A DNA stretch of 64,000 nucleotides, taken from Sipunculus nudus. Its lineage: Eukaryota > Annelida > Sipuncula > Golfingiida > Sipunculidae. Shown in pieces: positions 4,098-61,670 of the stretch (positions are counted from its first letter, which is position 1; every line of letters begins with the position of its first letter). Location of the stretch: NCBI GenBank assembly GCA_026874595.1, contig CM049313.1:80778659-80842658 (forward strand), in the 5' to 3' direction. The notes beneath the pieces are model-generated. The model saw only the letters and a program-made list of their open reading frames with translations, was not told the DNA's origin and made no database searches. A program made the position numbers and the translations under genes.

Positions 4098-4110
4098 CCA
4101 CCAGGGGGCG
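4098..4110 (+). promoter_or_regulatory. CTCF-like core motif
   Basis: CCACCAGGGGGCG preceded by G gives 14 contiguous matches to the centre of the known bilaterian CTCF consensus. Flanks beyond the core match less well (TGG follows where CTA is preferred). It is one of 28 such cores in this window, all on the + strand. Confidence 0.5.
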
Positions 4111-4339
4111 TGGTACTGGAAACACTGCAACTTACCATTTTTCTGCAATACCAAAAAAAATATTAAACGTGGCACAATGTTTACTGTCTTATCTGAAACT
4201 AGGATCGTCGGCTTATTCCTGCGTACATGTAGCTTTGCGCTGCTGTTACCATGGTAACCAAATTTTGGGGTAAAACTTGGCAATCTGAAAATAATAAGTT
4301 TTTTGCTTCTATCTCTGTTAATATTTATACTACAAGTGT

Positions 4340-4900
4340 CTAGTTTTCTGCATGAGGTAGCATTCCCTTGCCACTAATGCAGTTAATTGCAAGTCTCGTA
4401 GAATCTCGCTCTGTTTTCCGTCAAACGAGAAATTACGAGATTTCACAGAAATGCATATAACTTGGTCACCTTTTCGGCTAAAGAGGAGCAGTTTTCAGCA
4501 TTTTGTTGCGTTTTGGGAGCTTAACAAGATAATAACTTATATCTCGCCACATCTCGTACCATCTCCCGCCAAACGAGAATATTCGAGAATTCGAACAAAT
4601 GTCAATATCTCTGTCATTTGAATGCAAGAGATTTTATTTTTCTATTGTTCGAGATTCACTTGACTAGTTTGAAGTGACAAAATTGAATATCTCGTCATAT
4701 CTCGCATCATTTCTTGTCAAACGAGAACATGGGACCATTCAAAGATACGCCTATAATTCTGTTATTTTAATGCTGAAGACCTTTAGTTTTCAGCATTCGA
4801 TAGCGTCTAACACTCTCGGTCACATTATGTGTTTATATTGTAAGTTTCGTCAAAATCTGGGATCGTTTTTTCTTCAAATAAAAAAGTACATCCTATTGCC
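4340..4900 (+). repeat. 148-bp degenerate tandem sub-repeats
   Basis: The monomer runs roughly: a TAGTTTTCTGCAT-like start, a GTAGCAT-like segment, a paired TCTCG..TCTCG motif, a TCTCGT..ACGAGA dyad, GAGATTTCA, and a TATAA..CTGTCATTTT-like end. AAACGAGA landmarks at 4423, 4571 and 4719 give two exact 148-bp steps, and the next, decayed copy is about 157 bp further on. The same block recurs in each A-long unit, near 12810-13370, 21280-21840, 31230-31790, 43705-44265 and 61050-61610. Confidence 0.8.
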
Positions 4901-4965
4901 GTGACCATAAGTGGCGGCAGTATGTGATAGTAAATGTCGGCAGGGGCATTACACTTGACAGTTGG

Positions 4966-5259
4966 AGCCGTGTTCTATGGGTGTGCGATGGCCCATGAAG
5001 AAGGACTTCTATTGTGTTGTTATCGTCTTCCTTTGATTGCTGCTTCGTAAGCTTCACAGACCAGCGCCAACCACCTAGTTGCCATGTGTCCTCAATGTAA
5101 ACAACCTTTGCTGTTTTCCTTTCCCTAAGATATGTATGGTAGCCTGTTCACTTGTCCTTAGATTGTTTATTGTTGGTGTATTGAAGTAAAATAAAATGCC
5201 AGGTTTTCCTGCATATTGATTGTAAATTGAATAAAATCATACAAGAACCAACCAATGTT
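4966..5259 (+). repeat. Spacer D (HOR0)
   Basis: This ~295-bp segment occurs once per HOR and shows no internal repetition. It contains two AATAAA hexamers (in AAAATAAAATGCC and GAATAAAATCAT), so it could derive from a transcript 3' end, but no gene is visible. The copy here has an extra base in the GAAGAAGGACT segment compared with other HORs. Confidence 0.7.
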
Positions 5260-7129
5260 CTATGACCACTATTTCAGATTTGAGATCAGAACAATTGATT
5301 TCTGCATAAACCACTATGACCAGATTTGATAAACTTTAAAGTGGTCTATATTTTTTTCTGAAGAAGTTGAGCTATATGCTTGGAGATGCCAGCCAGTGGG
5401 TGTGAATGGATTGCAATGAAACCCAAGCCAGGTGTTTGTGAAGAGTCTGGTGGAGATGAAGGGGGCCAAAACCTATTTGACTGTGTATAAGCATAAACTG
5501 GCCTGAAATCAGGTTTCTGGGGGCATGAAATTTTTGTTTGTGGGAACAGGGTAATATTATCTTGTTTCCCTGTATATACACCCTAAACTGGGCCTAATGA
5601 CACCAAAACCAGGTTTGTGGGACCATCAGTACAGATTTGAGGGGGGGGGGGGGGAAATAGATTTTCTCTGTATATCACTATGTTCACTGTGTCCAGATTT
5701 GGAAATTCAAACTGGCCCTAATTTTTTTTCTGAGGGAGTTGAGCCAAATGCTTGGTGATGCCAGCCAGTGGGTGTAAATGGATTGCAATGATACCCAAAC
5801 CAGGAGTGTGTGTTGAGTTTTGTGGGGATGAGGGGGGCCAGAACCTATTTGACTGTGTATAAGCATAAACTGGCCTGAAATCAGCTTTCTGGGGGCTTGA
5901 AATTCTTGTTTGTGTCAACAGGGTAATATTATCTTGTTTCCCTGTATATACACCTTGAATTGGGCCTAATGACACCTAAACCATGTTTTAGGGACCATCA
6001 TTACAGATTTGAGGTAAAAAAAAAATGGATTTTCCCTGTATATCACTATGTTCACTGTGTCCAGATTTGGGAATTCAAACAGGCCCTAATTTTTTTTCTG
6101 AGGGAGTTGAGCCAAATGCTTGGTGATGCCAGCCAGTGGGTGTAAATGGATTGCAATGATACCCAAACCAGGAGTGTGTGTTGAGTTTTGTGGGGATGAG
6201 GGGGGCCAGAACCTATTTGACTGTGTATAAGCATAAACTGGCCTGAAATCAGGTTTCTGGGGGCATGAAATTTTTGTTTGTGGGAACAGGGTAATATTAT
6301 CTTGTTTCCCTGTATATACACCCTAAACTGGGCCTAATGACACCAAAACCAGGTTTGTGGGACCATCAGTACAGATTTGAGGGGGGGGGGGGGAAATGGA
6401 TTTTCTCTGTATATCACTATGTTCACTGTGTCCAGATTTGGAAATTCAAACTGGCCCTAATTTTTTTTCTGAGGGAGTTGAGCCAAATGCTTGGTGATGC
6501 CAGCCAGTGGGTGTAAATGGATTGCAATGATACCCAAACCAGGAGTGTGTGTTGAGTTTTGTGGGGATGAGGGGGGCCAGAACCTATTTGACTGTGTATA
6601 AGCATAAACTGGCCTGAAATCAGGTTTCTGGGGGCATGAAATTTTTGTTTGTGGGAACAGGGTAATATTATCTTGTTTCCCTATATATACACACTATAGT
6701 GGGCCTAATGACACCAAAACCAGGTTTGTGGGACCATCAGTACAGATTTGAGGGGAAAAAATGGATTTTTTCTGTATATATCTATGTCCACTGTGTCCAG
6801 ATTTGGAAATTCAAACTGGCCCTAATTTTTTTTCTGAGGGATTTGAACCCAATGCTTTGAGATTCCAGCCAGTGGGTGTAAATGGATTGCAATGATAGCC
6901 AAACCAGGTGTGTGTGATGAGTCTGGTGGAGATGAGGTGGTCCAAAACACTATTTGCCTGTGTATAATAAGCCATATACTGTCCTCAGCTGAAATCAGCT
7001 TTCTGGGGGCTTGAAATGTTTGCTGGTGGGAACAAGGTAATATTATCTTGTTATCATGGATATACACCCTAAAATGGGTCTAAGAACACCAAATACATGC
7101 ATGTTGGACCATGAGTACAGATTTGAGGT
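5260..7129 (+). repeat. B array, five ~370-bp repeats (HOR0)
   Basis: The GTCCAGATTT landmark falls at 5318 (as GACCAGATTT), 5691, 6059, 6430 and 6795, giving steps of 373, 368, 371 and 365 bp. The first and last copies are the most diverged. Each copy seems built from three related ~120-bp pieces, around a CTGTGTATAAGCATAAACTGG-like and a GTATATACACCCTAAACTGG-like segment; this is tentative. Runs of 13-14 G lie between copies. The reverse-strand open frames here are short and repeat with the array. Confidence 0.9.
5641..5654 (+). repeat. Poly-G tract in B array
   Basis: A run of 14 G on the + strand between B copies. The equivalent run has 15 G in HOR1 and 12 in HOR2, and only about 5 in HOR3-HOR5. 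Length differences between otherwise near-identical HORs may be real slippage or homopolymer sequencing error. Confidence 0.9.
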
Positions 7130-7306
7130 AACAAACTGTCTGTCTATAAATTAAAAAAAATCAAATATCAAACTGTTATAAACATGTATCAATATATTTA
7201 ATAAAATCTCTTTTCATCCAATGAATTGCATCTTATTTTTTCAATAAATAAACCATGATATTCAATTACATCCAGTAATAAAAAATAAAAATAAAATGAA
7301 TAAAAG

Positions 7307-7361
7307 TTTTTTTGTTTTTGTTTTTTTTTTTGGGGGGGGGGGGGTGTTTGTGTTTTTTTTT
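7307..7361 (+). repeat. Poly-T / poly-G / poly-T tract in C
   Basis: Two T-tracts are separated by a G run of about 12 and then TGTTTGTG, and the last T-tract is followed directly by GCAG. Equivalent tracts lie near 15777-15832, 24238-24296, 34178-34230 and 46651-46703. The inverted copy at about 2370-2430 reads C-run then A-run. Length differs between copies. Confidence 0.9.
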
Positions 7362-7740
7362 GCAGTAAAATCCAGGCTTCTCTTTGGATCCCGGCGGTGG
7401 GCGAGGGTACAATGGACACCACACAACATTTGAAAGAACATTTTTTTCTGCTGTTATTGGATGACCAAGTCTCTATGAATTTAAAAAAAAATATTTATTC
7501 CGTTATTCAAGATGACAGTGAAAATGACCCTATTTTTTCAATCATTCACCACTCTTTTCGAGCGTTCATCGAATAAGAAAGAGCCCGTCCCACCGCATTT
7601 CCTGCGAGGGTTCGTTTCTTCAGAGTCCAAACAATCCTACAGGGGCGGGGTTTAGTCCATCTCGTCTTAAATTTGTGTCCGGGGCACGGCAAACATTATG
7701 AAAGCGGACAAAAACATTCATACGGCTGGTAAATGCGTTT

Positions 7741-8160
7741 ATATGTAAACGCGGGGAATTCCCGGACAATTCACGGAGAGATTTTATATGCAATGATACT
7801 TTTAATTACACGTTAAAATCATTTAAAATCTACCACTATATTACTCTAAAGACATTTATTCACTGTTAAATTACCGAAATAATAACCAGCGCAAACAATG
7901 TGGGACTGCCACTAACACCAATCTGGATCACCAGCTAACATTGACTACCGATCTTACATCAGACGAAAACGCTAAACACTATATATTTTTTCAACAGTTT
8001 ACTGTGCAAACCGTAACAAAACCATGCAGGATATCAAAATTACAGGTTCTTAAGGAAATATGATACAAAACATAAATTGTACCTTTGCTCACATTTAATA
8101 ATATCATCATGATGAATTCTCCGCGAATTCTCCAGCTGTCCGCGTTATAGATGTATATGT
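7741..8160. repeat. Imperfect inverted repeat inside C
   Basis: The left arm near 7749-7812 (AACGCGG, then GGACAATTCACGGAGAG, then an AT-rich part) corresponds to the reverse complement of the right arm near 8090-8145 (AACGCGG, then GGAGAATTCGCGGAGA, then an AT-rich part). About 280-300 bp lie between the arms. The same pair is found in every complete C block. It could be an old foldback/MITE-like insertion. No target-site duplication could be identified by eye. Confidence 0.5.
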
Positions 8161-9161
8161 ATTTATTAATGACAAAAATTGACATACAATTTTATGGATA
8201 CCCGTATAATTGCGGTTTTCTGGACCGTCCCAGCCCACAGGTAGGATAATATGGATTCCCGACAATATTCTAATGACCGTTCCCTGAGCTGGAACGGGCT
8301 AAGAAGGTCCCTGTCATTTTTTTTAATTGTCAATTCCCAGGTTTTTCGGATAAAAAAATGGCCCAATCCTTCATTCAATCTCCAGCCTCTTCTGGCGTTC
8401 CGGGTTTAAAAAAGAGCCCGTCCCATGCCTATTTCAGCTAGGACTGCAAACTCTGGGGTCAAAACAACTCAACTACGGCTTGGGATTACTACCTTTCCTC
8501 TTAAATTTCCATCGCGCCCGTGTCAAGTGTACCGTTTTATTCACAAACGTGCGGCAGGCGCCAAAAAATTTGACAGCACCCCTTTCTCATGCCAGTAAAT
8601 AGTTTTATATATAAAGTCCTAACCCACCACGGAACTAGGGCCTCACAATTTTTTATCTTATTACTTACTACTTCAGACTCCTTAAACATCCCTGCTTTCC
8701 TTTTTTAACCAAAGATTCCAATTTTTAACATATATTAAATTTCACATTACACGAAGGGGACATTACAGTTAATCCGTGATGGGCAGGACTTCTTGGAATT
8801 TTATAATTCCCGGACGCAGGCTGACCGACTGCCTTTTTTCTTCAAGGACAGCCCTAATTTAAGCCATCATCAGACTTGAAGATGTCCTCAGGCCGACCTA
8901 TTTGTCCAGGAATGAAAGGTCACGTCTCCCTTACCCAGAGGTCGGGTCTCTGTCTAACACGAACGCGGCTTCGCTTGCATTTCGGCATTCTGGACGTTCA
9001 ACTCTTCAAGTTTCATTTTCAGTGCTTTTCTTATTTCCAGCACTCAAGAATAGGAGAACTGCCAAGGATTCAGTTGGACTTCCTTTATTTTTATTTCTGT
9101 CCAAAAATGGGTTATCTTGTATAGGATGGCTACTAATAACAACACTATTAATGTCTCTCTA

Positions 9162-9164
9162 TCC

Positions 9165-9196
<32 letters not shown>

Positions 9197-9212
9197 GTCT
9201 CTCTGTCTACTC
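9162..9212 (+). repeat. (GTCT)n microsatellite in C
   Basis: GTCT repeats with TCTC interruptions. The tract recurs at about 17630-17680, 26094-26144, 36029-36079 and 48501-48551, and in inverted form at 480-556. A GTCY tract next to the 3' end is a known mark of mini-me/DINE-1 and pearl elements. Confidence 0.95.
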
Positions 9213-9375
9213 CTCTTTGACTTTTGAAAATCAGCAAGACCTTATTCATATGTGCTACTGTTTTCCCCATGATAGAGGTTTTTCATTTGATCAGATCCAA
9301 ATGTTCCCTGTCTGTCTGCCTAGTAACTGTCCATCTATTTCGCTGTCTTATTTCCGGTCACTTCCGGCAAGCGTT

Positions 9376-9393
9376 CGACCTCAGGTCGTCTAG
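9376..9393 (+). mobile_element. Terminal hairpin plus CTAG, end of HOR0
   Basis: Arms CGACC/GGTCG with loop TCA are followed by TCTAG, and the next base is T. A short hairpin close to a CTRR end, with insertion before T, is the known 3'-end signature of Helitrons. The same 18 bases close HOR1 (17844-17861), HOR2 (26308-26325), HOR3 (36243-36260) and HOR4 (48715-48732). The inverted copy has arms TGACC/GGTCA, so the hairpin is kept although the base pair changed. Confidence 0.55.
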
Positions 9394-9513
9394 TTTGTTT
9401 GTTTGTTTGTCTGTCCAGTCTCTACAGGTCGCAATTTTGATCCCATCGCTTTCAAACTTTCACAGTTTGTGTAAAATCAAAAATGCAAGAAGCCTATTGT
9501 TTTTGGGCAATAT

Positions 9514-9538
9514 AGGTCAAAGGTCAAGGTCAAGGTCA
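9514..9538 (+). promoter_or_regulatory. Four AGGTCA half-sites (A1 type)
   Basis: Perfect AGGTCA hexamers lie at 9514, 9521, 9527 and 9533. The first pair is a DR1. The last two hexamers are each preceded by TCA, giving TCAAGGTCA, the extended half-site known for ERR/NR5A (FTZ-F1)-type receptors. Every A1 unit has the same cluster. Function is not shown. Confidence 0.55.
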
Positions 9539-9974
9539 TCAAAAGTTCCTAAAGTGCTCTTTTCTTCATATCTCCATTACTATTTGTCATAGCCACTTCA
9601 AACAGGGCTCATTTTAATCGGCATTCCAAGGCCTTTCTTCTGATATATATGTTGCTGAAATCTGCTGTTTCTATGGTTACACATTTTGGGGGGAAACTCA
9701 TGATTTTCGAAAATAAAAGGCCTAATTTTTCTAACTTTGTCATTTTTAAAGCTAGAGAGTTCTAGTTTTTTGCATCAGATAGTACTAAATAAGCTTTTAA
9801 TTATACAAGTGAAAGTCTCGTAAAATCTCGCACCATTTCTCGTCAAACGAGAATTTTCGAGATTTCATTAAATATGGCTTACAGGTCGCATTTTTTAAAC
9901 TATGACTTTGAAAATGACATATTTTGTGTTATTTAGAAATATCTCGAAACCAATTTTTCATTTTTTGGAAATAG

Positions 9975-9987
9975 CCACCAGGGGGCG
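9975..9987 (+). promoter_or_regulatory. CTCF-like core motif (A1)
   Basis: The core is identical to the one at 4098, preceded by TTGGAAATAG and followed by TGGTAC. The surrounding ~40 bases are kept among A1, A2 and, more loosely, A4 units. Confidence 0.5.
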
Positions 9988-10121
9988 TGGTACATGAAAC
10001 ACTGTAACATATCATTTTTCTGCAATATCTCAAAAAATATTAAACGTGACACCATTTTTTGGGTCGTATCTGAAACTAGGAACATTGGCTTATCCCTTCG
10101 CACATGTTGCTTTGTGCTGCC

Positions 10122-10136
10122 GTTACCATGGTTACC
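10122..10136 (+). promoter_or_regulatory. X-box-like site
   Basis: GTTACCATGGTTACC resembles the RFX X-box (GTNRCC, short gap, RGYAAC) on its left half. A-long and A2 units carry the full palindrome GTTACCATGGTAAC. Each A unit has two related sites, both followed by an ATTTTGGGG-like segment, so they come from an internal duplication. Confidence 0.4.
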
Positions 10137-10293
10137 AAATTTTGGGGTAAAACTTGACAATCTGAAAATTCGGAGTTTTCCAGCTTCTCTCTCTGTTGAT
10201 ATTTGCGATAGAAAGGTCTGGTGTTTGGCGTTAGACAGCATCCCTCTAGTTCTCAGTCATTCAATCGCAAGTCTCGTCATATCTCGCACCGTT

Positions 10294-10308
10294 TCTCGTG
10301 AAACGAGA
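10294..10308. repeat. TCTCGT-GAA-ACGAGA dyad
   Basis: A perfect inverted repeat with 6-bp arms and a 3-bp centre. Variants of it mark each 148-bp sub-repeat (centre CAA or GAA). It is repeated in each A1 unit. Confidence 0.8.
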
Positions 10309-10662
10309 ACACGTGACCATTCAAAGAAATGCCTATAATTATGTCATTTTTCACGCTACAGACACATGGTTTGCAGCGCTGGATAGCGGCTGACACTCGC
10401 AGTCACATTCAGGGGTCACATTGTTAGTCTCGTCAAATCTCGCGCCGTTTTTCGCCAAACCACGAAGACACGTGCCGTCGCCGCAAGTGGCGGCAGGGTC
10501 CCTACGGTGGGCGGCCGGCGTGTGCAGCGGTGCGTGACGGCCTCTCCGGGCCCCATCTATGATCATACATGTTGGAGGCACAGTCCAGACTTTATTGCTT
10601 GCCGGAAATCTTCGATTTTCGCAAGCTGGTTGGTCAGTCGCGGATGTCTGTTTGTCTGTTTG

Positions 10663-11975
10663 TTTGTTTGTTTGTTTGTCTGTCCAGTCTCTACAGGTCG
10701 CAATTTTGATCCCATCGCTTTCAAACTTTCACAGTTTGTGTAAAATCAAAAATGCAAGAAGCCTATTGTTTTTGGGCAATATAGGTCAAAGGTCAAGGTC
10801 AAGGTCATCAAAAGTTCCTAAAGTGCTCTTTTCTTCATATCTCCATTACTATTTGTCATAGCCACTTCAAACAGGGCTCATTTTAATCGGCATTCCAAGG
10901 CCTTTCTTCTGATATATATGTTGCTGAAATCTGCTGTTTCTATGGTTACACATTTTGGGGGGAAACTCATGATTTTCGAAAATAAAAGGCCTAATTTTTC
11001 TAACTTTGTCATTTTTAAAGCTAGAGAGTTCTAGTTTTTTGCATCAGATAGTACTAAATAAGCTTTTAATTATACAAGTGAAAGTCTCGTAAAATCTCGC
11101 ACCATTTCTCGTCAAACGAGAATTTTCGAGATTTCATTAAATATGGCTTACAGGTCGCATTTTTTAAACTATGACTTTGAAAATGACATATTTTGTGTTA
11201 TTAAGAAATATCTCGAAACCAATTTTTCATTTTTTGGAAATAGCCACCAGGGGGCGTGGTACATGAAACACTGTAACATATCATTTTTCTGCAATATCTC
11301 AAAAAATATTAAACGTGACACCATTTTTTGGGTCGTATCTGAAACTAGGAACATTGGCTTATCCCTTCGCACATGTTGCTTTGTGCTGCCGTTACCATGG
11401 TTACCAAATTTTGGGGTAAAACTTGACAATCTGAAAATTCGGAGTTTTCCAGCTTCTCTCTCTGTTGATATTTGCGATAGAAAGGTCTGGTGTTTGGCGT
11501 TAGACAGCATCCCTCTAGTTCTCAGTCATTCAATCGCAAGTCTCGTCATATCTCGCACCGTTTCTCGTGAAACGAGAACACGTGACCATTCAAAGAAATG
11601 CCTATAATTATGTCATTTTTCACGCTACAGACACATGGTTTGCAGCGCTGGATAGCGGCTGACACTCGCAGTCACATTCAGGGGTCACATTGTTAGTCTC
11701 GTCAAATCTCGCGCCGTTTTTCGCCAAACCACGAAGACACGTGCCGTCGCCGCAAGTGGCGGCAGGGTCCCTACGGTGGGCGGCCGGCGTGTGCAGCGGT
11801 GCGTGACGGCCTCTCCGGGCCCCATCTATGATCATACATGTTGGAGGCACAGTCCAGACTTTATTGCTTGCCGGAAATCTTCGATTTTCGCAAGCTGGTT
11901 GGTCAGTCGCGGATGTCTGTTTGTTGCTTGCCGGAAATCTTCGATTTTCGCAAGCATGTTGGTCACCCGCGTATG
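10663..11975 (+). repeat. A1 unit, HOR1 copy 2
   Basis: Same body as the preceding A1, with one visible substitution near 11202 (TATTAAG for TATTTAG). It ends in two hairpin copies (11866 and 11926) instead of one. Its CTCF-like core is at 11244-11256. Switching to A-long happens at the microsatellite after the hairpins. Confidence 0.92.
11866..11955 (+). repeat. Hairpin minisatellite, 2 copies
   Basis: Copies at 11866 and 11926, 60 bp apart. The first is followed by a TGGTTGGTCAGTCGCGG linker and the second by ATGTTGGTCACCCGCG. The 30-nt hairpin itself is unchanged between them. Confidence 0.9.
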
Positions 11976-13434
11976 TTTGTTTGTTTGTTTGTCTGTCTGT
12001 CTGTTTGTCTGTATGTACACGCGCTACAGGCCACAGTTTTTAAGCAATCGCTCTGAAACTTATACATTAAGTGTAAGATTGGTTCTCCTCGGAGCCTATT
12101 GTTTTTGGTCATGATCGGTCAAAGGTCAAGGTCAGGGTCACCAAAAAACCTAACATTTTTACTTTCTTCATATCTTTGTCAATAATAATCGTAGCCCCAT
12201 AATCTGTAGCTCATTTTATTCCTCTTTATGTTAGCTTTCCAAGTGCTAGCAAATTTTTCTGGTCGATTGTTACCATCGTAACGTATTTTTGGGGGGAAAA
12301 TCAGAAAATTCGAAAATTTCACTAAAAATTTTTCATTTTTTAAGTTAGAGAGGTCTAGTTTTTTGCATTGTGTAGCATTTAATATGCTCTATGGAAAATT
12401 AACGGGAGTCTCGCAAAATCTCGTGCCATTTGTCGCCAAATGAGACTTTTCGAGATTTCATTAAAAACGATTTAGAGGTGTCAGTTTTACAGCTAAGGTT
12501 CTAAAAGTGACATATTTTCTGTTTTTCTGTATTATCTCGAACTCGTTTTTTCATTTTTTTAAATTAGCCACCAGGGGGCGTGGTACTGGAAACACTGCAA
12601 CTTACCATTTTTCTGCAATACCAAAAAAAATATTAAACGTGGCACAATGTTTACTGTCTTATCTGAAACTAGGATCGTCGGCTTATTCCTGCGTACATGT
12701 AGCTTTGCGCTGCTGTTACCATGGTAACCAAATTTTGGGGTAAAACTTGGCAATCTGAAAATAATAAGTTTTTTGCTTCTATCTCTGTTAATATTTATAC
12801 TACAAGTGTCTAGTTTTCTGCATGAGGTAGCATTCCCTTGCCACTAATGCAGTTAATTGCAAGTCTCGTAGAATCTCGCTCTGTTTTCCGTCAAACGAGA
12901 AATTACGAGATTTCACAGAAATGCATATAACTTGGTCACCTTTTCGGCTAAAGAGGAGCAGTTTTCAGCATTTTGTTGCGTTTTGGGAGCTTAACAAGAT
13001 AATAACTTATATCTCGCCACATCTCGTACCATCTCCCGCCAAACGAGAATATTCGAGAATTCGAACAAATGTCAATATCTCTGTCATTTGAATGCCAGAG
13101 ATTTTATTTTTCTATTGTTCGAGATTCACTTGACTAGTTTGAAGTGACAAAATTGAATATCTCGTCATATCTCGCATCATTTCTTGTCAAACGAGAACAT
13201 GGGACCATTCAAAGATACGCCTATAATTCTGTTATTTTAATGCTGAAGACCTTTAGTTTTCAGCATTCGATAGCGTCTAACACTCTCGGTCACATTATGT
13301 GTTTATATTGTAAGTTTCGTCAAATCTGGGATCGTTTTTTCTTCAAATAAAAAAGTACATCCTATTGCCGTGACCATAAGTGGCGGCAGTATGTGATAGT
13401 AAATGTCGGCAGGGGCATTACACTTGACAGTTGG
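11976..13434 (+). repeat. A-long unit (HOR1)
   Basis: Same structure as the A-long of HOR0 (offset about 8470). CTCF-like core at 12568-12580, perfect GTTACCATGGTAAC palindrome near 12715, and the 148-bp sub-repeat block near 12810-13370. Confidence 0.88.
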
Positions 13435-17861: not shown

Positions 17862-19130
17862 TTTGTTTGTTTGTTTGTCTGTCCAGTCTCTACAGGTCGC
17901 AATTTTGATCCCATCGCTTTCAAACTTTCACAGTTTGTGTAAAATCAAAAATGCAAGAAGCCTATTGTTTTTGGGCAATATAGGTCAAAGGTCAAGGTCA
18001 AGGTCATCAAAAGTTCCTAAAGTGCTCTTTTCTTCATATCTCCATTACTATTTGTCATAGCCACTTCAAACAGGGCTCATTTTAATCGGCATTCCAAGGC
18101 CTTTCTTCTGATATATATGTTGCTGAAATCTGCTGTTTCTATGGTTACACATTTTGGGGGGAAACTCATGATTTTCGAAAATAAAAGGCCTAATTTTTCT
18201 AACTTTGTCATTTTTAAAGCTAGAGAGTTCTAGTTTTTTGCATCAGATAGTACTAAATAAGCTTTTAATTATACAAGTGAAAGTCTCGTAAAATCTCGCA
18301 CCATTTCTCGTCAAACGAGAATTTTCGAGATTTCATTAAATATGGCTTACAGGTCGCATTTTTTAAACTATGACTTTGAAAATGACATATTTTGTGTTAT
18401 TTAGAAATATCTCGAAACCAATTTTTCATTTTTTGGAAATAGCCACCAGGGGGCGTGGTACATGAAACACTGTAACATATCATTTTTCTGCAATATCTCA
18501 AAAAATATTAAACGTGACACCATTTTTTGGGTCGTATCTGAAACTAGGAACATTGGCTTATCCCTTCGCACATGTTGCTTTGTGCTGCCGTTACCATGGT
18601 TACCAAATTTTGGGGTAAAACTTGACAATCTGAAAATTCGGAGTTTTCCAGCTTCTCTCTCTGTTGATATTTGCGATAGAAAGGTCTGGTGTTTGGCGTT
18701 AGACAGCATCCCTCTAGTTCTCAGTCATTCAATCGCAAGTCTCGTCATATCTCGCACCGTTTCTCGTGAAACGAGAACACGTGACCATTCAAAGAAATGC
18801 CTATAATTATGTCATTTTTCACGCTACAGACACATGGTTTGCAGCGCTGGATAGCGGCTGACACTCGCAGTCACATTCAGGGGTCACATTGTTAGTCTCG
18901 TCAAATCTCGCGCCGTTTTTCGCCAAACCACGAAGACACGTGCCGTCGCCGCAAGTGGCGGCAGGGTCCCTACGGTGGGCGGCCGGCGTGTGCAGCGGTG
19001 CGTGACGGCCTCTCCGGGCCCCATCTATGATCATACATGTTGGAGGCACAGTCCAGACTTTATTGCTTGCCGGAAATCTTCGATTTTCGCAAGCTGGTTG
19101 GTCAGTCGCGGATGTCTGTTTGTCTGTTTG
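17862..19130 (+). repeat. A1 unit, HOR2 copy 1
   Basis: 1269 bp, one terminal hairpin, CTCF-like core at 18443-18455. Confidence 0.92.
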
Positions 19131-48503: not shown

Positions 48504-48535
<32 letters not shown>

Positions 48536-48732
48536 GTCTCTCTGTCTACTCCTCTTTGACTTTTGAAAATCAGCAAGACCTTATTCATATGTGCTACTGT
48601 TTTCCCCATGATAGAGGTTTTTCATTTGATCAGATCCAAATGTTCCCTGTCTGTCTGCCTAGTAACTGTCCATCTATTTCGCTGTCTTATTTCCGGTCAC
48701 TTCCGGCAAGCGTTCGACCTCAGGTCGTCTAG
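46474..48732 (+). repeat. C block (HOR4)
   Basis: Same subfamily as HOR3. 54-codon frame at 46751-46915; terminal hairpin plus CTAG at 48715-48732. This C is followed by A2' and not A1, as in the inverted copy at 1-2508. Confidence 0.88.
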
Positions 48733-51700: not shown

Positions 51701-54700
51701 GCCATTTGTCGTCAAATGAGACTTTCCGAGATTTCATTAAATATGATTTACAGGTGGCAGTTTTACAGCTAAGGTTCTGAAAGTGACATATTTTCTGTTG
51801 TTCTGTATTATCTCAAACTTGTTTTTTCATTTTTCGGAAATAGCCACCAGGGGGCGTGGTACTGGAAACACTGTAACATATCATTTTTCCGCAATATCTA
51901 AAAAAATATTAAGCATATAACAATTTTTTTTGTCGCATCTAAAACTAGGATCATTGCCTTATTCCTTCGTACATTTAGCCTGGTGCTGCCGTTACCATGG
52001 TGACCAAATTTTGGGGTAAAACTTGACAATCTGAAATACGGAGTGTTCCTGCTTCTGTCTCTGTCAATATTTGCGATAGAACGCTCTGGTTTTAGGCGTT
52101 AGATAGCATTAGTTTACTTCTTAGTCATTCAATAGAAAGGCTCGTCATATCTCGCACCGTTTCTCGTGAAACGAGAACACGAGACCATTCAAAGAAATGC
52201 CTATAATTCTGTCATTTTTTACGCTACAGACACACGGTTTGCAGCGTTGGATAGCGGCTGACGCTCGCAGTCACATTCAGGGGTCACATTGTTAGTCTCG
52301 TCAAATCTCGCGCCGTTTTTCGCCAAACCACGAAGACCCGTGCCATCGCCGCAAGTGCCGGCAGGGTCCTTACGGTGGGCGGCCGGCGTGTGCAGCGGTG
52401 CGTGTCGGCCTTTCCGGGCCCTGTCTATTATCCTACATGTTGGAGGCACAGTCACAACTTTATTGCTTGCCGGAAATCTTCGATTTTCGCAAGCATGTTG
52501 ATCACCCGCGTATGTTTGTTTGTTTGTTTGTCTGTCTGTCTGTTTGTCTGTATGTACACGCGCTACAGGCCACAGTTTTTAAGCAATCGCTCTGAAACTT
52601 ATCCATAAACTGTAAGATCTGTTCTCCTCGGAGCCTATTGTTTTTGGTCATGATCGGTCAAAGGTCAAGGTCAGGGTCACCAAAAAACCTTAAATCTTTA
52701 TTTTCTTCATATCTTCGTCAATAATAATCGTAGCCGCATAATCTGTGGCTCATTTTATTCCTCACTATGTTAGCTTTCCAAGTGCTGGCAAATTTTTCCG
52801 GTCAATTGTTACCATGGTAACGTATTTTGGGGGGAAAATAAGAAAATTCGAAAATTTCCCTCCAAATTTCTCATTTTTTGAGTTAGAGAGGCCTAGTTTT
52901 TTGCAATGCGTAGCATTTAATATGCTCTATGCGAAATTAATGTGAGTCTCGCAAAATCTCGTGCCATTTGTCGTCAAATGAGACTTTCCGAGATTTCATT
53001 AAATATGATTTACAGGTGGCAGTTTTACAGCTAAGGTTCTGAAAGTGACATATTTTCTGTTGTTCTGTATTATCTCAAACTTGTTTTTTCATTTTTCGGA
53101 AATAGCCACCAGGGGGCGTGGTACTGGAAACACTGTAACATATCATTTTTCCGCAATATCTAAAAAAATATTAAGCATATAACAATTTTTTTTGTCGCAT
53201 CTAAAACTAGGATCATTGCCTTATTCCTTCGTACATTTAGCCTGGTGCTGCCGTTACCATGGTGACCAAATTTTGGGGTAAAACTTGACAATCTGAAATA
53301 CGGAGTGTTCCTGCTTCTGTCTCTGTCAATATTTGCGATAGAACGCTCTGGTTTTAGGCGTTAGATAGCATTAGTTTACTTCTTAGTCATTCAATAGAAA
53401 GGCTCGTCATATCTCGCACCGTTTCTCGTGAAACGAGAACACGAGACCATTCAAAGAAATGCCTATAATTCTGTCATTTTTTACGCTACAGACACACGGT
53501 TTGCAGCGTTGGATAGCGGCTGACGCTCGCAGTCACATTCAGGGGTCACATTGTTAGTCTCGTCAAATCTCGCGCCGTTTTTCGCCAAACCACGAAGACC
53601 CGTGCCATCGCCGCAAGTGCCGGCAGGGTCCTTACGGTGGGCGGCCGGCGTGTGCAGCGGTGCGTGTCGGCCTTTCCGGGCCCTGTCTATTATCCTACAT
53701 GTTGGAGGCACAGTCACAACTTTATTGCTTGCCGGAAATCTTCGATTTTCGCAAGCATGTTGATCACCCGCGTATGTTTGTTTGTTTGTTTGTCTGTCTG
53801 TCTGTTTGTCTGTATGTACACGCGCTACAGGCCACAGTTTTTAAGCAATCGCTCTGAAACTTATCCATAAACTGTAAGATCTGTTCTCCTCGGAGCCTAT
53901 TGTTTTTGGTCATGATCGGTCAAAGGTCAAGGTCAGGGTCACCAAAAAACCTTAAATCTTTATTTTCTTCATATCTTCGTCAATAATAATCGTAGCCGCA
54001 TAATCTGTGGCTCATTTTATTCCTCACTATGTTAGCTTTCCAAGTGCTGGCAAATTTTTCCGGTCAATTGTTACCATGGTAACGTATTTTGGGGGGAAAA
54101 TAAGAAAATTCGAAAATTTCCCTCCAAATTTCTCATTTTTTGAGTTAGAGAGGCCTAGTTTTTTGCAATGCGTAGCATTTAATATGCTCTATGCGAAATT
54201 AATGTGAGTCTCGCAAAATCTCGTGCCATTTGTCGTCAAATGAGACTTTCCGAGATTTCATTAAATATGATTTACAGGTGGCAGTTTTACAGCTAAGGTT
54301 CTGAAAGTGACATATTTTCTGTTGTTCTGTATTATCTCAAACTTGTTTTTTCATTTTTCGGAAATAGCCACCAGGGGGCGTGGTACTGGAAACACTGTAA
54401 CATATCATTTTTCCGCAATATCTAAAAAAATATTAAGCATATAACAATTTTTTTTGTCGCATCTAAAACTAGGATCATTGCCTTATTCCTTCGTACATTT
54501 AGCCTGGTGCTGCCGTTACCATGGTGACCAAATTTTGGGGTAAAACTTGACAATCTGAAATACGGAGTGTTCCTGCTTCTGTCTCTGTCAATATTTGCGA
54601 TAGAACGCTCTGGTTTTAGGCGTTAGATAGCATTAGTTTACTTCTTAGTCATTCAATAGAAAGGCTCGTCATATCTCGCACCGTTTCTCGTGAAACGAGA

Positions 54701-57700
54701 ACACGAGACCATTCAAAGAAATGCCTATAATTCTGTCATTTTTTACGCTACAGACACACGGTTTGCAGCGTTGGATAGCGGCTGACGCTCGCAGTCACAT
54801 TCAGGGGTCACATTGTTAGTCTCGTCAAATCTCGCGCCGTTTTTCGCCAAACCACGAAGACCCGTGCCATCGCCGCAAGTGCCGGCAGGGTCCTTACGGT
54901 GGGCGGCCGGCGTGTGCAGCGGTGCGTGTCGGCCTTTCCGGGCCCTGTCTATTATCCTACATGTTGGAGGCACAGTCACAACTTTATTGCTTGCCGGAAA
55001 TCTTCGATTTTCGCAAGCATGTTGATCACCCGCGTATGTTTGTTTGTTTGTTTGTCTGTCTGTCTGTTTGTCTGTATGTACACGCGCTACAGGCCACAGT
55101 TTTTAAGCAATCGCTCTGAAACTTATCCATAAACTGTAAGATCTGTTCTCCTCGGAGCCTATTGTTTTTGGTCATGATCGGTCAAAGGTCAAGGTCAGGG
55201 TCACCAAAAAACCTTAAATCTTTATTTTCTTCATATCTTCGTCAATAATAATCGTAGCCGCATAATCTGTGGCTCATTTTATTCCTCACTATGTTAGCTT
55301 TCCAAGTGCTGGCAAATTTTTCCGGTCAATTGTTACCATGGTAACGTATTTTGGGGGGGAAAATAAGAAAATTCGAAAATTTCCCTCCAAATTTCTCATT
55401 TTTTGAGTTAGAGAGGCCTAGTTTTTTGCAATGCGTAGCATTTAATATGCTCTATGCGAAATTAATGTGAGTCTCGCAAAATCTCGTGCCATTTGTCGTC
55501 AAATGAGACTTTCCGAGATTTCATTAAATATGATTTACAGGTGGCAGTTTTACAGCTAAGGTTCTGAAAGTGACATATTTTCTGTTGTTCTGTATTATCT
55601 CAAACTTGTTTTTTCATTTTTCGGAAATAGCCACCAGGGGGCGTGGTACTGGAAACACTGTAACATATCATTTTTCCGCAATATCTAAAAAAATATTAAG
55701 CATATAACAATTTTTTTTGTCGCATCTAAAACTAGGATCATTGCCTTATTCCTTCGTACATTTAGCCTGGTGCTGCCGTTACCATGGTGACCAAATTTTG
55801 GGGTAAAACTTGACAATCTGAAATACGGAGTGTTCCTGCTTCTGTCTCTGTCAATATTTGCGATAGAACGCTCTGGTTTTAGGCGTTAGATAGCATTAGT
55901 TTACTTCTTAGTCATTCAATAGAAAGGCTCGTCATATCTCGCACCGTTTCTCGTGAAACGAGAACACGAGACCATTCAAAGAAATGCCTATAATTCTGTC
56001 ATTTTTTACGCTACAGACACACGGTTTGCAGCGTTGGATAGCGGCTGACGCTCGCAGTCACATTCAGGGGTCACATTGTTAGTCTCGTCAAATCTCGCGC
56101 CGTTTTTCGCCAAACCACGAAGACCCGTGCCATCGCCGCAAGTGCCGGCAGGGTCCTTACGGTGGGCGGCCGGCGTGTGCAGCGGTGCGTGTCGGCCTTT
56201 CCGGGCCCTGTCTATTATCCTACATGTTGGAGGCACAGTCACAACTTTATTGCTTGCCGGAAATCTTCGATTTTCGCAAGCATGTTGATCACCCGCGTAT
56301 GTTTGTTTGTTTGTTTGTCTGTCTGTCTGTTTGTCTGTATGTACACGCGCTACAGGCCACAGTTTTTAAGCAATCGCTCTGAAACTTATCCATAAACTGT
56401 AAGATCTGTTCTCCTCGGAGCCTATTGTTTTTGGTCATGATCGGTCAAAGGTCAAGGTCAGGGTCACCAAAAAACCTTAAATCTTTATTTTCTTCATATC
56501 TTCGTCAATAATAATCGTAGCCGCATAATCTGTGGCTCATTTTATTCCTCACTATGTTAGCTTTCCAAGTGCTGGCAAATTTTTCCGGTCAATTGTTACC
56601 ATGGTAACGTATTTTGGGGGGGAAAATAAGAAAATTCGAAAATTTCCCTCCAAATTTCTCATTTTTTGAGTTAGAGAGGCCTAGTTTTTTGCAATGCGTA
56701 GCATTTAATATGCTCTATGCGAAATTAATGTGAGTCTCGCAAAATCTCGTGCCATTTGTCGTCAAATGAGACTTTCCGAGATTTCATTAAATATGATTTA
56801 CAGGTGGCAGTTTTACAGCTAAGGTTCTGAAAGTGACATATTTTCTGTTGTTCTGTATTATCTCAAACTTGTTTTTTCATTTTTCGGAAATAGCCACCAG
56901 GGGGCGTGGTACTGGAAACACTGTAACATATCATTTTTCCGCAATATCTAAAAAAATATTAAGCATATAACAATTTTTTTTGTCGCATCTAAAACTAGGA
57001 TCATTGCCTTATTCCTTCGTACATTTAGCCTGGTGCTGCCGTTACCATGGTGACCAAATTTTGGGGTAAAACTTGACAATCTGAAATACGGAGTGTTCCT
57101 GCTTCTGTCTCTGTCAATATTTGCGATAGAACGCTCTGGTTTTAGGCGTTAGATAGCATTAGTTTACTTCTTAGTCATTCAATAGAAAGGCTCGTCATAT
57201 CTCGCACCGTTTCTCGTGAAACGAGAACACGAGACCATTCAAAGAAATGCCTATAATTCTGTCATTTTTTACGCTACAGACACACGGTTTGCAGCGTTGG
57301 ATAGCGGCTGACGCTCGCAGTCACATTCAGGGGTCACATTGTTAGTCTCGTCAAATCTCGCGCCGTTTTTCGCCAAACCACGAAGACCCGTGCCATCGCC
57401 GCAAGTGCCGGCAGGGTCCTTACGGTGGGCGGCCGGCGTGTGCAGCGGTGCGTGTCGGCCTTTCCGGGCCCTGTCTATTATCCTACATGTTGGAGGCACA
57501 GTCACAACTTTATTGCTTGCCGGAAATCTTCGATTTTCGCAAGCATGTTGATCACCCGCGTATGTTTGTTTGTTTGTTTGTCTGTCTGTCTGTTTGTCTG
57601 TATGTACACGCGCTACAGGCCACAGTTTTTAAGCAATCGCTCTGAAACTTATCCATAAACTGTAAGATCTGTTCTCCTCGGAGCCTATTGTTTTTGGTCA

Positions 57701-58837
57701 TGATCGGTCAAAGGTCAAGGTCAGGGTCACCAAAAAACCTTAAATCTTTATTTTCTTCATATCTTCGTCAATAATAATCGTAGCCGCATAATCTGTGGCT
57801 CATTTTATTCCTCACTATGTTAGCTTTCCAAGTGCTGGCAAATTTTTCCGGTCAATTGTTACCATGGTAACGTATTTTGGGGGGGAAAATAAGAAAATTC
57901 GAAAATTTCCCTCCAAATTTCTCATTTTTTGAGTTAGAGAGGCCTAGTTTTTTGCAATGCGTAGCATTTAATATGCTCTATGCGAAATTAATGTGAGTCT
58001 CGCAAAATCTCGTGCCATTTGTCGTCAAATGAGACTTTCCGAGATTTCATTAAATATGATTTACAGGTGGCAGTTTTACAGCTAAGGTTCTGAAAGTGAC
58101 ATATTTTCTGTTGTTCTGTATTATCTCAAACTTGTTTTTTCATTTTTCGGAAATAGCCACCAGGGGGCGTGGTACTGGAAACACTGTAACATATCATTTT
58201 TCCGCAATATCTAAAAAAATATTAAGCATATAACAATTTTTTTTGTCGCATCTAAAACTAGGATCATTGCCTTATTCCTTCGTACATTTAGCCTGGTGCT
58301 GCCGTTACCATGGTGACCAAATTTTGGGGTAAAACTTGACAATCTGAAATACGGAGTGTTCCTGCTTCTGTCTCTGTCAATATTTGCGATAGAACGCTCT
58401 GGTTTTAGGCGTTAGATAGCATTAGTTTACTTCTTAGTCATTCAATAGAAAGGCTCGTCATATCTCGCACCGTTTCTCGTGAAACGAGAACACGAGACCA
58501 TTCAAAGAAATGCCTATAATTCTGTCATTTTTTACGCTACAGACACACGGTTTGCAGCGTTGGATAGCGGCTGACGCTCGCAGTCACATTCAGGGGTCAC
58601 ATTGTTAGTCTCGTCAAATCTCGCGCCGTTTTTCGCCAAACCACGAAGACCCGTGCCATCGCCGCAAGTGCCGGCAGGGTCCTTACGGTGGGCGGCCGGC
58701 GTGTGCAGCGGTGCGTGTCGGCCTTTCCGGGCCCTGTCTATTATCCTACATGTTGGAGGCACAGTCACAACTTTATTGCTTGCCGGAAATCTTCGATTTT
58801 CGCAAGCATGTTGATCACCCGCGTATGTTTGTTTGTT
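48733..58837 (+). repeat. Eight tandem A2' units (HOR5)
   Basis: The period is 1262 bp for the first five units and 1263 bp afterwards. CTCF-like cores start at 49320, 50582, 51844, 53106, 54368, 55631, 56894 and 58157. Each unit has one hairpin, the full GTTACCATGGTAAC palindrome (49022-49035 in the first), and GTTACCATGGTGACC (49467 in the first). The extra base in units 6-8 is a seventh G after the first palindrome (near 55353, 56616 and 57879). Confidence 0.95.
49022..49035. promoter_or_regulatory. Perfect X-box-like palindrome
   Basis: GTTACCATGGTAAC fits the RFX X-box consensus GTNRCC-N2-RGYAAC on both strands. It recurs in each A2-type and A2' unit, for example at 50284, 51546 and 52808. 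The match to consensus is direct; binding is inference. Confidence 0.45.
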
Positions 58838-58865
58838 GCTTGCCGGAATCAGAGATTTCGACAAG
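58838..58865 (+). repeat. Variant hairpin at A4 left edge
   Basis: Arms CTTG/CAAG and CGGAATC/GATTTCG (one G-T pair) with loop AGA. The stem is kept although the sequence differs from the standard hairpin. The same element stands at 60113-60140 on the right edge. Confidence 0.8.
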
Positions 58866-59295
58866 TATGTTGATCAGTTCCGTTTGTTTGTTTGTCTGTA
58901 TGTCCCCGCTCTACAGGCCACAATTTTGCACCAATCGTCCTGATACTTATAGATAGAGTGTATAATCGGTTCTTCTCGGAGCCTATTGTTTTTGGTCATG
59001 ATCGGTCAAGGGTCAAGGTCAGGGTCACCAAAAAGCTCAAAAACGGTTTTTTCTTCACACCTTCGTCAAAAATAGCCGTAGGCACCTAATCTGTAGCCCG
59101 TTTTATTTGCCACTGCATGGCCACTTCCAACACTGCAAAATTGCCTCATTTCGCTGTTACCATGGTTACGCAATTTTGGGGAGAAATCATGGAATTTCGT
59201 GATATTTTTCAAATTTGCAGCAATTTTACTGATTCTGAGATATTTTATGTAACATAAGAATATCTCGAAACGGGTTATTCAGATTTTGGAAATGG

Positions 59296-59308
59296 CCGCC
59301 AGGGGGCG
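59296..59308 (+). promoter_or_regulatory. CTCF-like core, A4 first
   Basis: CCGCCAGGGGGCG, within GGAAATGGCCGCC. It sits at the place homologous to the core of A1 and A2, preceded by an ATATCTCGAAAC..TTTTGGAAA context. Confidence 0.5.
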
Positions 59309-59752
59309 TTGCAGATGAAAAAACATGAAAATTTGTTTTGGTGCTATACCTCCAGAACTATTAAACATTGGGCCATTTCCATCACAGCACCTTAAACTAG
59401 GGTCCATGGGCTTATTTTTGCGCATAGGTGCCAAAGTGCGCTATTGCCAGATTTCTCTATTTTTGGGGGTAAAACCTTTGAATTTTGAAAATATGCAGTT
59501 TTCAGCTTCTAACTCTGTCAGTTTTTATGCTAGAGAGGTCAAAATTTTTGCATCTGGTAGCCCTTGGTGAGTTCTCGGTGATCCAACCAAAAATCTTGCA
59601 AAATCTCGCACCGTTTCTCGTCGAATGAGATTTCGCGATTTCACGGTGACATGCCCTATAGGCCACAGATATGCAGGCATCCTTTTGAAACTGATACATG
59701 TTACGTCATACACTAATATCTCGAAAGCAATTGTTCAGTTTTTGGAAAATTA

Positions 59753-59769
59753 CCGCTAGGGGGCGCTGC
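59753..59769 (+). promoter_or_regulatory. CTCF-like core, A4 second
   Basis: CCGCTAGGGGGCGCTGC is preceded by a second copy of the ATATCTCGAAA..TTTTTGGAAA context, so A4 has an internal duplication of the core segment. Its 3' flank (GCGCTGC) fits the extended CTCF consensus better than the A1/A2 cores. Confidence 0.5.
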
Positions 59770-60112
59770 ACTGCAACCCCGTACCTACTATCATTGTTTA
59801 ACCATATCTCCAAAACTACACATTTTAGGTACATAAACTGTACACCATATGAATTGGCGTTTCATGGCCTTTCTGCCCATGACCTCTTTTGTTTAATCAT
59901 ACACGGTCCCCACAAATTTTAGCAACTTTGTAAAAATTAAAACCCGCATGCACAAATACATATGCCATCACGCATGCATGCACGCGTTTTAGTATGAAAG
60001 ACAGACACGCTTTCCCGTGACTGCAAAAATTATAGCGTTCGCCGTATAAAATAAGTGACCACAGGCACTCTTTGCGGGCCGGTTTGCCATTTCTGTCGCG
60101 TTATAGTTTATT

Positions 60113-60193
60113 GCTTGCCGGAATCAGAGATTTCGACAAGTATGTTGATCAGTTCCATTTGTTGCTTGCCGGAAATCTTCGATTTTCGCAAGC
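60113..60193 (+). repeat. Variant plus standard hairpin
   Basis: The A4-type hairpin at 60113-60140 is followed by the standard 30-nt hairpin at 60164-60193, then the microsatellite of the next A unit. Confidence 0.85.
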
Positions 60194-60213
60194 ATGTTGA
60201 TCACCCGCGTATG

Positions 60214-61670
60214 TTTGTTTGTTTGTTTGTTTGTTTGTCTGTCTGTTTGTCTGTATGTACACGCGCTAGAGGCCACAGTTATTGAGCAATCGCTCTGAAA
60301 CTTATACATATACTGTAAGATCTGTTCTCCTCGGAGCCTATTGTTTTTGGTCATGATCGGTCAAAGGTCAAGGTCAGGGTCACCAAAAAACCTAAAATCT
60401 TTATTTTCTTCATATCCTCGTCAATAATAACCGTAGCCGCATAATCCGTAGCTCATTTTATTCCTCACTATGTTAGCTTTCCAAGTGCTAGCAAATTTTT
60501 CTGGTCAATTGTTACCATGGTAACGTATTTTTGGGGGGAAATCAGAAAATACGAAAATTTCCCTCCAAATTTCTCATTTTTTAAGTTAGAGAGGTCTAGT
60601 TTTTTGCATTGTGTAGCATTTAATATGCTCTACGGGAAATTAATGTAAGTCTCGCAAAATCTCGTGCCATTCGTCGTCAAATGAGGCTTTTCGAGATTTC
60701 ATTTAATACGATTTAGAGGTGGCAGTTTTACAGCTAAGGTTCTAAAAGTGACATATTTTCTGTTTTTCTGTATTATCTCGAACTTGTTTTTTTCATTTTT
60801 TGAAATTAGCCACCAGGGGGCGTGGTACTGGAAACACTGCAACTTACCATTTTTCTGCAATACCAAAAAAAATATTAAACGTGGCACAATGTTTACTGTC
60901 TTATCTGAAACTAGGATCGTCGGCTTATTCCTGCGTACATGTAGCTTTGCGCTGCTGTAACCATGGTAACCAAGTTTTGGGGTAAAACTTGGCAATCTGA
61001 AAATAATAAGTTTTCTGCTTCTATCTCTGTTAATATTTATACTACAAGTGTCTAGTTTTCTGCATGAGGTAGCATTCCCTTGCCACTAATGCAGTTAATT
61101 GCAAGTCTCGTAGAATCTCGCTCTGTTTTCCGTCAAACGAGAAATTACGAGATTTCACAGAAATGCATATAACTTGGTCACCTTTTCGGCTAAAGAGGAG
61201 CAGTTTTCAGCATTTTGTTGCGTTTTGGGAGCTTAACAAGATAATGACCTTTATCTCGCCACATCTCGTACCATCTCCCGCCAAACGAGAATATTCGAGA
61301 ATTCGAACAAATGTCTATATCTCTGTCATTTGAATGCCAGAGATTTTATTTTTCTATTGTTCAAGATTCACTTGACTAGTTTGAAGTGACAAAATTGAAT
61401 ATCTCGTCATATCTCGCATCATTTCTTGTCAAACGAGAACATGGGACCATTCAAAGATACGCCTATAATTCTGTTATTTTAATGCTGAAGACCTTTAGTT
61501 TTCAGCATTCGATAGCGTCTAACACTCTCGGTCACATTATGTGTTTATATTGTAAGTTTCGTCAAATCTGGGATCGTTTTTACTTCAAATAAAAAAGTAC
61601 ATCCTATTGCCGTGACCATAAGTGGCGGCAGTATGTGATAGTAAATGTCGGCAGGGGCATTACACTTGAC
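60214..61670 (+). repeat. A-long unit (HOR5)
   Basis: A2-type start, then the A-long body. CTCF-like core at 60810-60822. It is more diverged from the other A-long units than they are from each other (CTGTAACCATGGTAACC near 60955, AATGACCTTTATCTC near 61245). Confidence 0.87.

Follow-up and report, generated by a model that had tools for sequence, protein, structure and literature searches.

A Helentron-like tandem repeat with co-oriented CTCF-like motifs in Sipunculus nudus

The ISX Helitron of Drosophila miranda reportedly spread dosage-compensation binding sites, with functional proof, and the CTCF sites of mammalian short interspersed elements (SINEs) are carried by a retrotransposon and supported by chromatin immunoprecipitation (ChIP). 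This study deals with 64,000 nucleotides of the 1.43-Gb genome of Sipunculus nudus (scaffold C8:80778659-80842658, referred to as the window), in which a CTCF-like motif recurs in tandem units that appear to derive from a HINE. HINEs are non-autonomous Helentrons and belong to the rolling-circle DNA transposons. As with ISX, a Helitron would have spread sites of a chromosome-wide regulator, with a different protein and a different motif. In the SINE case (PMC3368268), as in Sipunculus, CTCF sites are spread in large numbers by a mobile element, whereas the element is here a putative rolling-circle DNA transposon, the host is not a mammal and the evidence is that of the motif.

The closest structural relatives are the Cg_HINE/pearl-type Helentrons of the Pacific oyster (PMC7492417), which share with the Sipunculus element a 5' subterminal inverted repeat (subTIR) with adjoining inverted repeat (IR), a 4-nt microsatellite (GTCY-like), satellite-like central repeats, a 3' subTIR, a 3' palindrome and dispersal throughout the genome. 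The Sipunculus HINE differs by its CTCF-like central repeat, CTCF being mentioned nowhere in the accessible text of the oyster paper, and by its long 3'-truncated tandem arrays. DXZ4, FIRRE and ICCE of the mammalian X chromosome (PMC6985041, PMC3491370) are likewise tandem arrays, and the CTCF sites in their units all point the same way, as stated for Dxz4. CTCF occupies these arrays, and on the X they serve as anchors of a boundary or of superloops, whereas the Sipunculus array is made of a probable transposon unit found on several chromosomes; its tandem CTCF-like sites are of one polarity inside the window, and the polarity flips across a scaffold gap.

With modest confidence we propose that a Helentron spread a CTCF-like site, that tandem amplification made arrays of it, and that the CTCF of the host binds some of the copies, as predicted from the motif. 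CTCF sites carried by transposons have been described chiefly in mammals; a Helentron seems to do likewise here, in thousands of copies. The rolling-circle transposon and the non-mammalian host would be new, while transposon-borne CTCF sites and a DXZ4-like geometry are known. Among the titles and beginnings of abstracts listed, mostly from open journals, no Helentron carrying CTCF sites was described.

The motif and its repeat unit

In the first-pass annotation, 28 CTCF-like cores were listed for the window, two of them variants in the diverged A4 units, and all were found at their positions. A direct string check of the 64-kb sequence gave the exact 13-mer CCACCAGGGGGCG at 26 of the 28 places on the plus strand. 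The A4 variants, CCGCCAGGGGGCG at 59296 and CCGCTAGGGGGCG at 59753, lie on the plus strand as well, and no exact copy of CCACCAGGGGGCG was found on the minus strand of the window. BLAST homologues covering the core place, a count that takes in only units possessing that stretch, numbered 28 within the window, every one at the same coordinates. Since the copies descend from a single motif, the 28 cores are one inherited motif and not 28 independent events.

The likeness to CTCF sites, for which a matrix scan had been proposed, was borne out over the full 19 bp. The 19-bp scoring matrix (maximum 29.5 bits) was an approximate CTCF matrix put together for this analysis, which applies to all scores given in this text. 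With this matrix, the 26 exact sites scored 21.3 bits and the A4 variants 22.1 and 22.3 bits, so that 28 of 28 sites in the window fit the CTCF motif at 21.3 to 22.3 bits. In 30 Markov-1 sequences, each 64 kb long, the top-scoring site had 15.0 bits on average and 21.1 bits at most. Genome-wide, the exact 13-mer was counted 3,767 times, with 0 occurrences of the reversed control. On the basis of both controls, chance was rejected as an explanation of the recurring motif.

By string check and matrix, the 19-bp motif occupies, always on the plus strand, positions 4095-4113 (core 4098), 12565-12583 (core 12568) and 21033-21051 (core 21036) in A1 units, and 30986-31004 (core 30989), 43459-43477 (core 43462) and 60807-60825 (core 60810) in A1-like units. 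In A2 units it is located at 9972-9990 (core 9975), 11241-11259 (core 11244), 18440-18458 (core 18443), 19709-19727 (core 19712), 26904-26922 (core 26907), 28173-28191 (core 28176), 36839-36857 (core 36842), 38108-38126 (core 38111), 39377-39395 (core 39380) and 40646-40664 (core 40649). The A3 units carry it at 29608-29626 (core 29611), 42081-42099 (core 42084), 49317-49335 (core 49320), 50579-50597 (core 50582), 51841-51859 (core 51844), 53103-53121 (core 53106), 54365-54383 (core 54368), 55628-55646 (core 55631), 56891-56909 (core 56894) and 58154-58172 (core 58157), and the diverged A4 units at 59293-59311 (CCGCCAGGGGGCG, 22.1 bits) and 59750-59768 (CCGCTAGGGGGCG, 22.3 bits). The proposed spacing of about 1.27 kb holds inside the arrays, where the cores are 1,262 to 1,435 bp apart, but not between arrays, which are separated by approximately 5.86 kb, nor for the final core interval of 2,653 bp, which holds both A4 variants.

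Judged by their sequence anatomy, the A units represent HINE copies in tandem, most of them truncated on the 3' side. The order of its parts is a 5' subTIR/IR hairpin, a microsatellite, a central repeat holding the core, a 3' subTIR and a palindrome, as in the HINEs of the Pacific oyster (PMC7492417) and of Drosophila and other arthropods (PMC4067079). The 5' subTIR and the adjoining complementary IR form the hairpin TTGCTTGCCGGAAATC-TTC-GATTTTCGCAAGC (folding energy -8.8 kcal/mol), followed by TGTC/TGTT microsatellites on the left side of the units; an example is found at 10593-10631 on the plus strand. The 3' subTIR is the 11-bp sequence TTCCGGCAAGC, complementary to the 5' subTIR. The palindrome that follows, CGACCTCAGGTCG, folds and is succeeded by CTAG. 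This 3' end is located at 9362-9393 (plus strand), with further copies starting at 17830, 26294, 36229 and 48701, and at these five places in the window it terminates the C modules which precede the A arrays. The strict hairpin pattern matched 35 times in the window (several times in some units) vs five 3' ends. Tandemly repeated whole elements, often without the 3' end in inner copies, are described for the oyster as well (PMC7492417).

Outside the window, the strict hairpin pattern also matched in the copies on C2 and at both places on C4 (C4a, C4b) and, among six further copies on C1 taken with wider flanks (L100-L105), in L101 and L105. It did not match in L100, L102, L103 and L104, with a decayed form seen in L103. 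The strict 3' subTIR pattern matched in C4a, C4b and L100 and gave no match in C2 and L101-L105, with decayed forms in L103 and L104. Central repeats of approximately 330 bp are present in C2 and among L100-L104. Read by eye, L101 shows the 5' hairpin, the microsatellite and central repeats, L100 central repeats and the 3' end, while L103 has both HINE ends in decayed form.

The satellite to which the amplification of the cores had been ascribed is real as a tandem array, but, given the subTIRs and the palindrome, its description as an ordinary satellite gave way to that of a rolling-circle transposon (HINE) repeated in tandem. The common orientation of the cores would therefore follow from the tandem HINE array, and both co-orientation and even spacing are probably by-products of tandem copying.

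Genome-wide spread and a CTCF-like protein of the host

The motif is not confined to the window. Twenty of the exact 13-mer sites among the matches listed, picked partly for differing spacings, comprised 17 of the A family and three in unrelated DNA. A flank-only pattern, which leaves the core free and fixes flank bases and, within the 19-bp motif, one terminal G, was found at 9,049 places compared to 350 in the control, corresponding to approximately 8,700 family copies. Among the matches listed, which all come from C1, its places belong for the most part to A-type units or to a family of central repeats spaced about 327 to 331 bp. Of 40 flank-pattern copies examined, L090 being a chance match among them, 37 scored at least 12 bits and 30 at least 18 bits. 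The consensus of the central repeat, TGGCCGCTAGGGGGCGCTG, reaches 25.3 of at most 29.5 bits and matches the matrix at all 19 positions. As far as the matrix goes, TGGCCGCTAGGGGGCGCTG is a near-ideal 19-bp CTCF motif and CCACCAGGGGGCG its A-type relative. The broad pattern CCRSYAGRKGGCRS, which leaves out A-type sites through its last letter, occurs 15,544 times vs 150 in the control. Of the first 100 of these matches listed, 84 lie no more than 6 kb from another listed match, and 41 fall on one of 62 places taken from the flank-pattern matches listed.

Close copies of the A units are found on C2, C4 (two places) and C15, and A units occur on C1 too. Among 38 homologous places checked at other loci, four A-type or A4 cores were damaged, by a 1-base insertion, by the loss of a G, and in the forms CCACCAGGGGCCG and CCGCGAGGGGGCG; variant cores were also seen in six central-repeat monomers. 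On C1 (7645231-7652888), seven CTCF-pattern sites spaced exactly 1,274 bp represent a further array, whose units differ slightly in length.

A possible lack of CTCF in the host had been raised in the first-pass annotation; an open reading frame (ORF) for an 11-finger CTCF-like C2H2 protein was found on C11 (67037578-67038510). Its fingers align to zinc fingers (ZF) 1-11 of human CTCF with 56% identity in the finger region (E 4.9e-109), the next-best match to the CTCF fingers having an E value of 9.6e-56. The contact residues at -1, 2, 3 and 6 are the same as in the human protein in ZF3, ZF4 and ZF5. ZF6 retains Q at -1, and in ZF7 both R at -1 and D at 3 are kept. Of the four contact residues, one is different in ZF10 and at least two are different in each remaining finger. 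Its rank as best match and the anatomy of its fingers suggest that the protein is a CTCF orthologue.

Sites of the same motif class are strongly over-represented outside the HINE repeat. The CTCF variant CCASYAGATGGCRS, which is foreign to HINEs, was counted 1,556 times genome-wide vs 18 in the control. The CCASYAGATGGCRS sites examined (L120-L179) are all located on C1. Forty of them lie mostly in unrelated contexts: three pairs are weakly similar, and the two HINE flank models gave 0 and 1 matches. At the five positions left open by the pattern, the 40 sites agree with the matrix to a degree reached in 0 of 5,000 null draws. Ten bp ahead of the core, these non-HINE sites carry an upstream module, TAGTT-like, with T(-15) in 28, G(-13) in 20, T(-12) in 32 and T(-11) in 23 of the 40 discovery sites. 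In 20 further sites, T(-15) was present in 14, G(-13) in 13 and T(-12) in 16, while T(-11), in nine of the 20, was not significant. TNGTT was found at the place of the module in 344 of the 1,556 CCASYAGATGGCRS sites, compared to roughly 0.5% expected from base composition by our own arithmetic. In vertebrate CTCF sites, an upstream part is read by ZF9-11. The module looks like this part, with a sequence that would be specific to the host. From these sites, the putative host CTCF evidently uses the same motif class genome-wide.

The motif in HINEs and host sites might instead be read by another G-rich-binding C2H2 protein, which we regard as very improbable. C2H2 genes are many in this genome, the search with the CTCF fingers giving 320 matches, often several per gene, and the upstream module of the host is unlike the vertebrate one. 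Among the matches listed, however, the C11 ORF alone spans all fingers at high score with ZF3-5 contacts identical to the human ones, and a different upstream module would suit its diverged ZF9-11. Among the weaker matches of the same search, a cluster of many C2H2 zinc-finger ORFs was noticed on C16.

The course of events that we favour would begin with a HINE whose central repeat carried the near-consensus site TGGCCGCTAGGGGGCGCTG. Transposition of the Helentron would have scattered this site across the genome. The head-to-tail arrays would stem from tandem amplification, either during rolling-circle replication or through unequal exchange at a later time. At least some HINE copies are predicted to be bound by the host CTCF. 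Slowed change of the motif, dealt with below, suggests, without proving it, that the 19 bp were of importance in the spreading lineages, through binding or through some other use.

Conservation of the motif within the repeat

A core changing as fast as its flanks had been named as an outcome that would speak against the CTCF reading. Substitution rates were compared using flank-only profile hidden Markov models (129 pairs), deduplication, a flank-only tree and context-matched flank rates including CpG. Excluded were one of the 129 (short context or N), 16 copies from the core-selected loci L036-L055, and L105, where one place had been hit by the core pattern and the flank pattern alike, leaving 111 copies. 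Ranks among comparison windows along the repeat were used, since Poisson values ignore rate variation among sites. In a sample of 38 copies, the 19-bp frame had 61 changes vs 116.6 expected (0.52), the slowest of 120 comparison windows; with 51 copies, 65 changes were counted vs 132.1 expected (0.49), the second-slowest of 121. Both samples include flank-pattern copies, and the flank pattern fixes bases adjoining the core. With L105 retained, the ratios were 0.48 and 0.45, and a sample including flank-pattern places in L100-L105 gave 0.53 (rank 2 of 121). In a set including core-selected loci, GC-matched positions were far less conserved than the motif, none of 20,000 draws reaching it. The slowing of the motif is clear in the larger samples and modest in small samples without flank-selected copies, where the difference between core and flanks was less clear.

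The slow positions are 9-14, while 5, 6, 8 and 17 are not slow, and further slow blocks lie at -38 and -22 in the repeat. We take the AGGGGGCG half of the motif to be the one read mainly by ZF3-5. In hindsight, the slowest stretch, which falls in this half, fits the human-identical ZF3-5, and the freely changing half fits the diverged ZF6-7. The same distribution of slow positions, together with the two blocks outside the motif, would also suit a 19-bp block that is kept for the transposon itself, by binding of the Helentron Rep/helicase or of a replication factor, and merely resembles a CTCF site. Such an explanation appears decidedly unlikely to us: the consensus matches CTCF at all 19 positions and at 25.3 bits, and the host employs the same motif class outside HINEs.

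A number of results weigh against the proposal that a Helentron spread a site used by CTCF. Without flank-pattern copies, 19 copies had 42 changes vs 60.3 expected (0.70, rank 7 of 121); the window alone gave 0.67 (rank 18 of 121, 11 copies) and L021-L035 alone 0.62 (rank 16 of 121, 14 copies). The 13-bp core by itself was never the slowest (ranks 7 to 18), and the comparison window at -38 was equally slow or slower than the motif. In 73 copies, obtained after leaving out 27 of 100 listed rows (A-type or chance matches), changes were not clearly steered by CTCF tolerance (mean score change -3.13 vs -3.35 in the null, p 0.34), nor did substitution types deviate significantly (p 0.10). Information content failed as a predictor of conservation within the motif, with rho 0.25 (p 0.34) in the 73 copies and rho 0.06 (p 0.79) in a tree of 42 copies from a set including core-selected loci; in the latter tree, the mean score change was -2.95 vs -3.65 (p 0.04). 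Free change is seen at position 5, which ranks second in information content in the matrix, and a damaging CTG change (CTGC) is found in copies that multiplied. The upstream module is ambiguous in HINEs: its score is 1.0 to 1.9 in six of seven unit types and -2.0 in the seventh (for comparison, mean 2.85 in discovery and 1.56 in replication sites; 90th percentile 1.08 in random and 1.85 in A/T-rich random sequence). Binding, a role in transposition and any effect on chromatin are predictions.

Many of these results would be expected if the motif had arisen by chance in the HINE ancestor and was then copied as a passive hitchhiker, the copies being young or gene-converted and nothing being selected, though CTCF may bind some of them. 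Possible but on balance doubtful, this account agrees with substitutions that show no clear CTCF-like steering, with the multiplied CTG-change copies, with unique CpG events in the 73 copies that are as even (nine C5->T vs nine G6->A) as in neutral CpG decay, with A units of which some are 99.7% alike between loci, and with the unexceptional ranks (7 to 18 of 121) of the small samples. The ratios of 0.49 to 0.52 in the larger samples, the position of the exact 19-bp frame as slowest or second-slowest, and the GC-matched draws are against it. The weaker rates in the small samples (0.62 to 0.70) led us to lower the weight given to the spread of a CTCF-bound site by the Helentron and to the stronger version described below, and to raise that of the hitchhiker.

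Array layout and the end of scaffold C8

The window contains six A arrays of HINE tandem units, all on the plus strand, at 3009-4920 (array 1, truncated by a run of N), 9410-13389 (array 2), 17878-21857 (array 3), 26342-31760 (array 4), 36277-44233 (array 5) and 48777-61631 (array 6, including the diverged A4). To the right, the array extends 27 kb beyond the window, up to the end of scaffold C8. The unbroken stretch right of the 500-N scaffold gap (2509-3008) comprises at least 34 co-oriented sites, 32 exact and two variants, including six beyond the window. The earlier statement that all cores lie on the plus strand thus holds within the window, but not left of the gap, where the array continues reversed for at least 20 kb with two exact cores on the minus strand. 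Because the orientation of the array flips at the gap, the polarity across it is a scaffolding choice.

At this locus, the likely outcome under the favoured course of events would be a group of CTCF sites which share one orientation and could stall cohesin, or else a sink for CTCF, with a geometry like that of DXZ4. A stronger version, which we consider unlikely, holds that the HINE retained its full-length CTCF site because docking of CTCF or cohesin favoured the spread of the element, that oriented CTCF sites were seeded in this way by the thousands, and that the tandem arrays work like DXZ4 as directional barriers to cohesin, or as sinks for CTCF, for instance at the end of this chromosome. 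It seems quite improbable that the array at the end of C8 functions, as mammalian DXZ4 does, as a boundary on the scale of the chromosome or as an anchor of loops. Many strong motifs are indeed co-oriented along a long array, and in mouse the CTCF sites of Dxz4 all have one polarity; it determines in which direction contacts are made, and inversion swaps this direction (PMC6985041). However, A units occur on C1, C2, C4 and C15 as well, so that the locus is not singular, and the orientation flips at the scaffold gap. Moreover, orientation rules were not found in the accessible texts on other invertebrates: borders of topologically associating domains in sea urchin and sea star are enriched in CTCF motifs without orientation (PMC13317027), and squid borders have a CCCTC-like motif for which directionality was not identified (PMC10658182).

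From isolated elements up to long co-oriented arrays, the HINE copies form a natural dosage series. This series could bear on whether the orientation and number of motifs set loop extrusion outside vertebrates (PMC13317027, PMC10658181).

The 500-N gap at 2509-3008 joins opposed pieces of one array, and the order or orientation of the scaffold may be wrong there. The array at the end of C8 (window positions 48701-64000 and L021-L023) is maybe subtelomeric, or the assembly stops in it. Among C1-C17, the contigs of known length measure 61 Mb or more, while C18-C22 have 52 to 92 kb, which makes a number of 17 chromosomes likely. The window as a whole gave no match to Rfam at gathering thresholds. 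Its 48 stop-to-stop ORFs of at least 120 amino acids, six of which merely span the N run, appear to be repeat frames as read by eye. Besides the A arrays, the array period includes a C module of 2.28 kb (7129-9410, plus strand), terminating in the HINE 3' end, and a recurring B block (5351-7128, plus strand). In the B block no strong CTCF-like site was found, its best sites (8.8 to 8.9 bits) being at background level. The B block consists of an approximately 365-bp repeat in 4.8 copies at 5351-7128, vs about nine copies in one period of the reversed array on the left.

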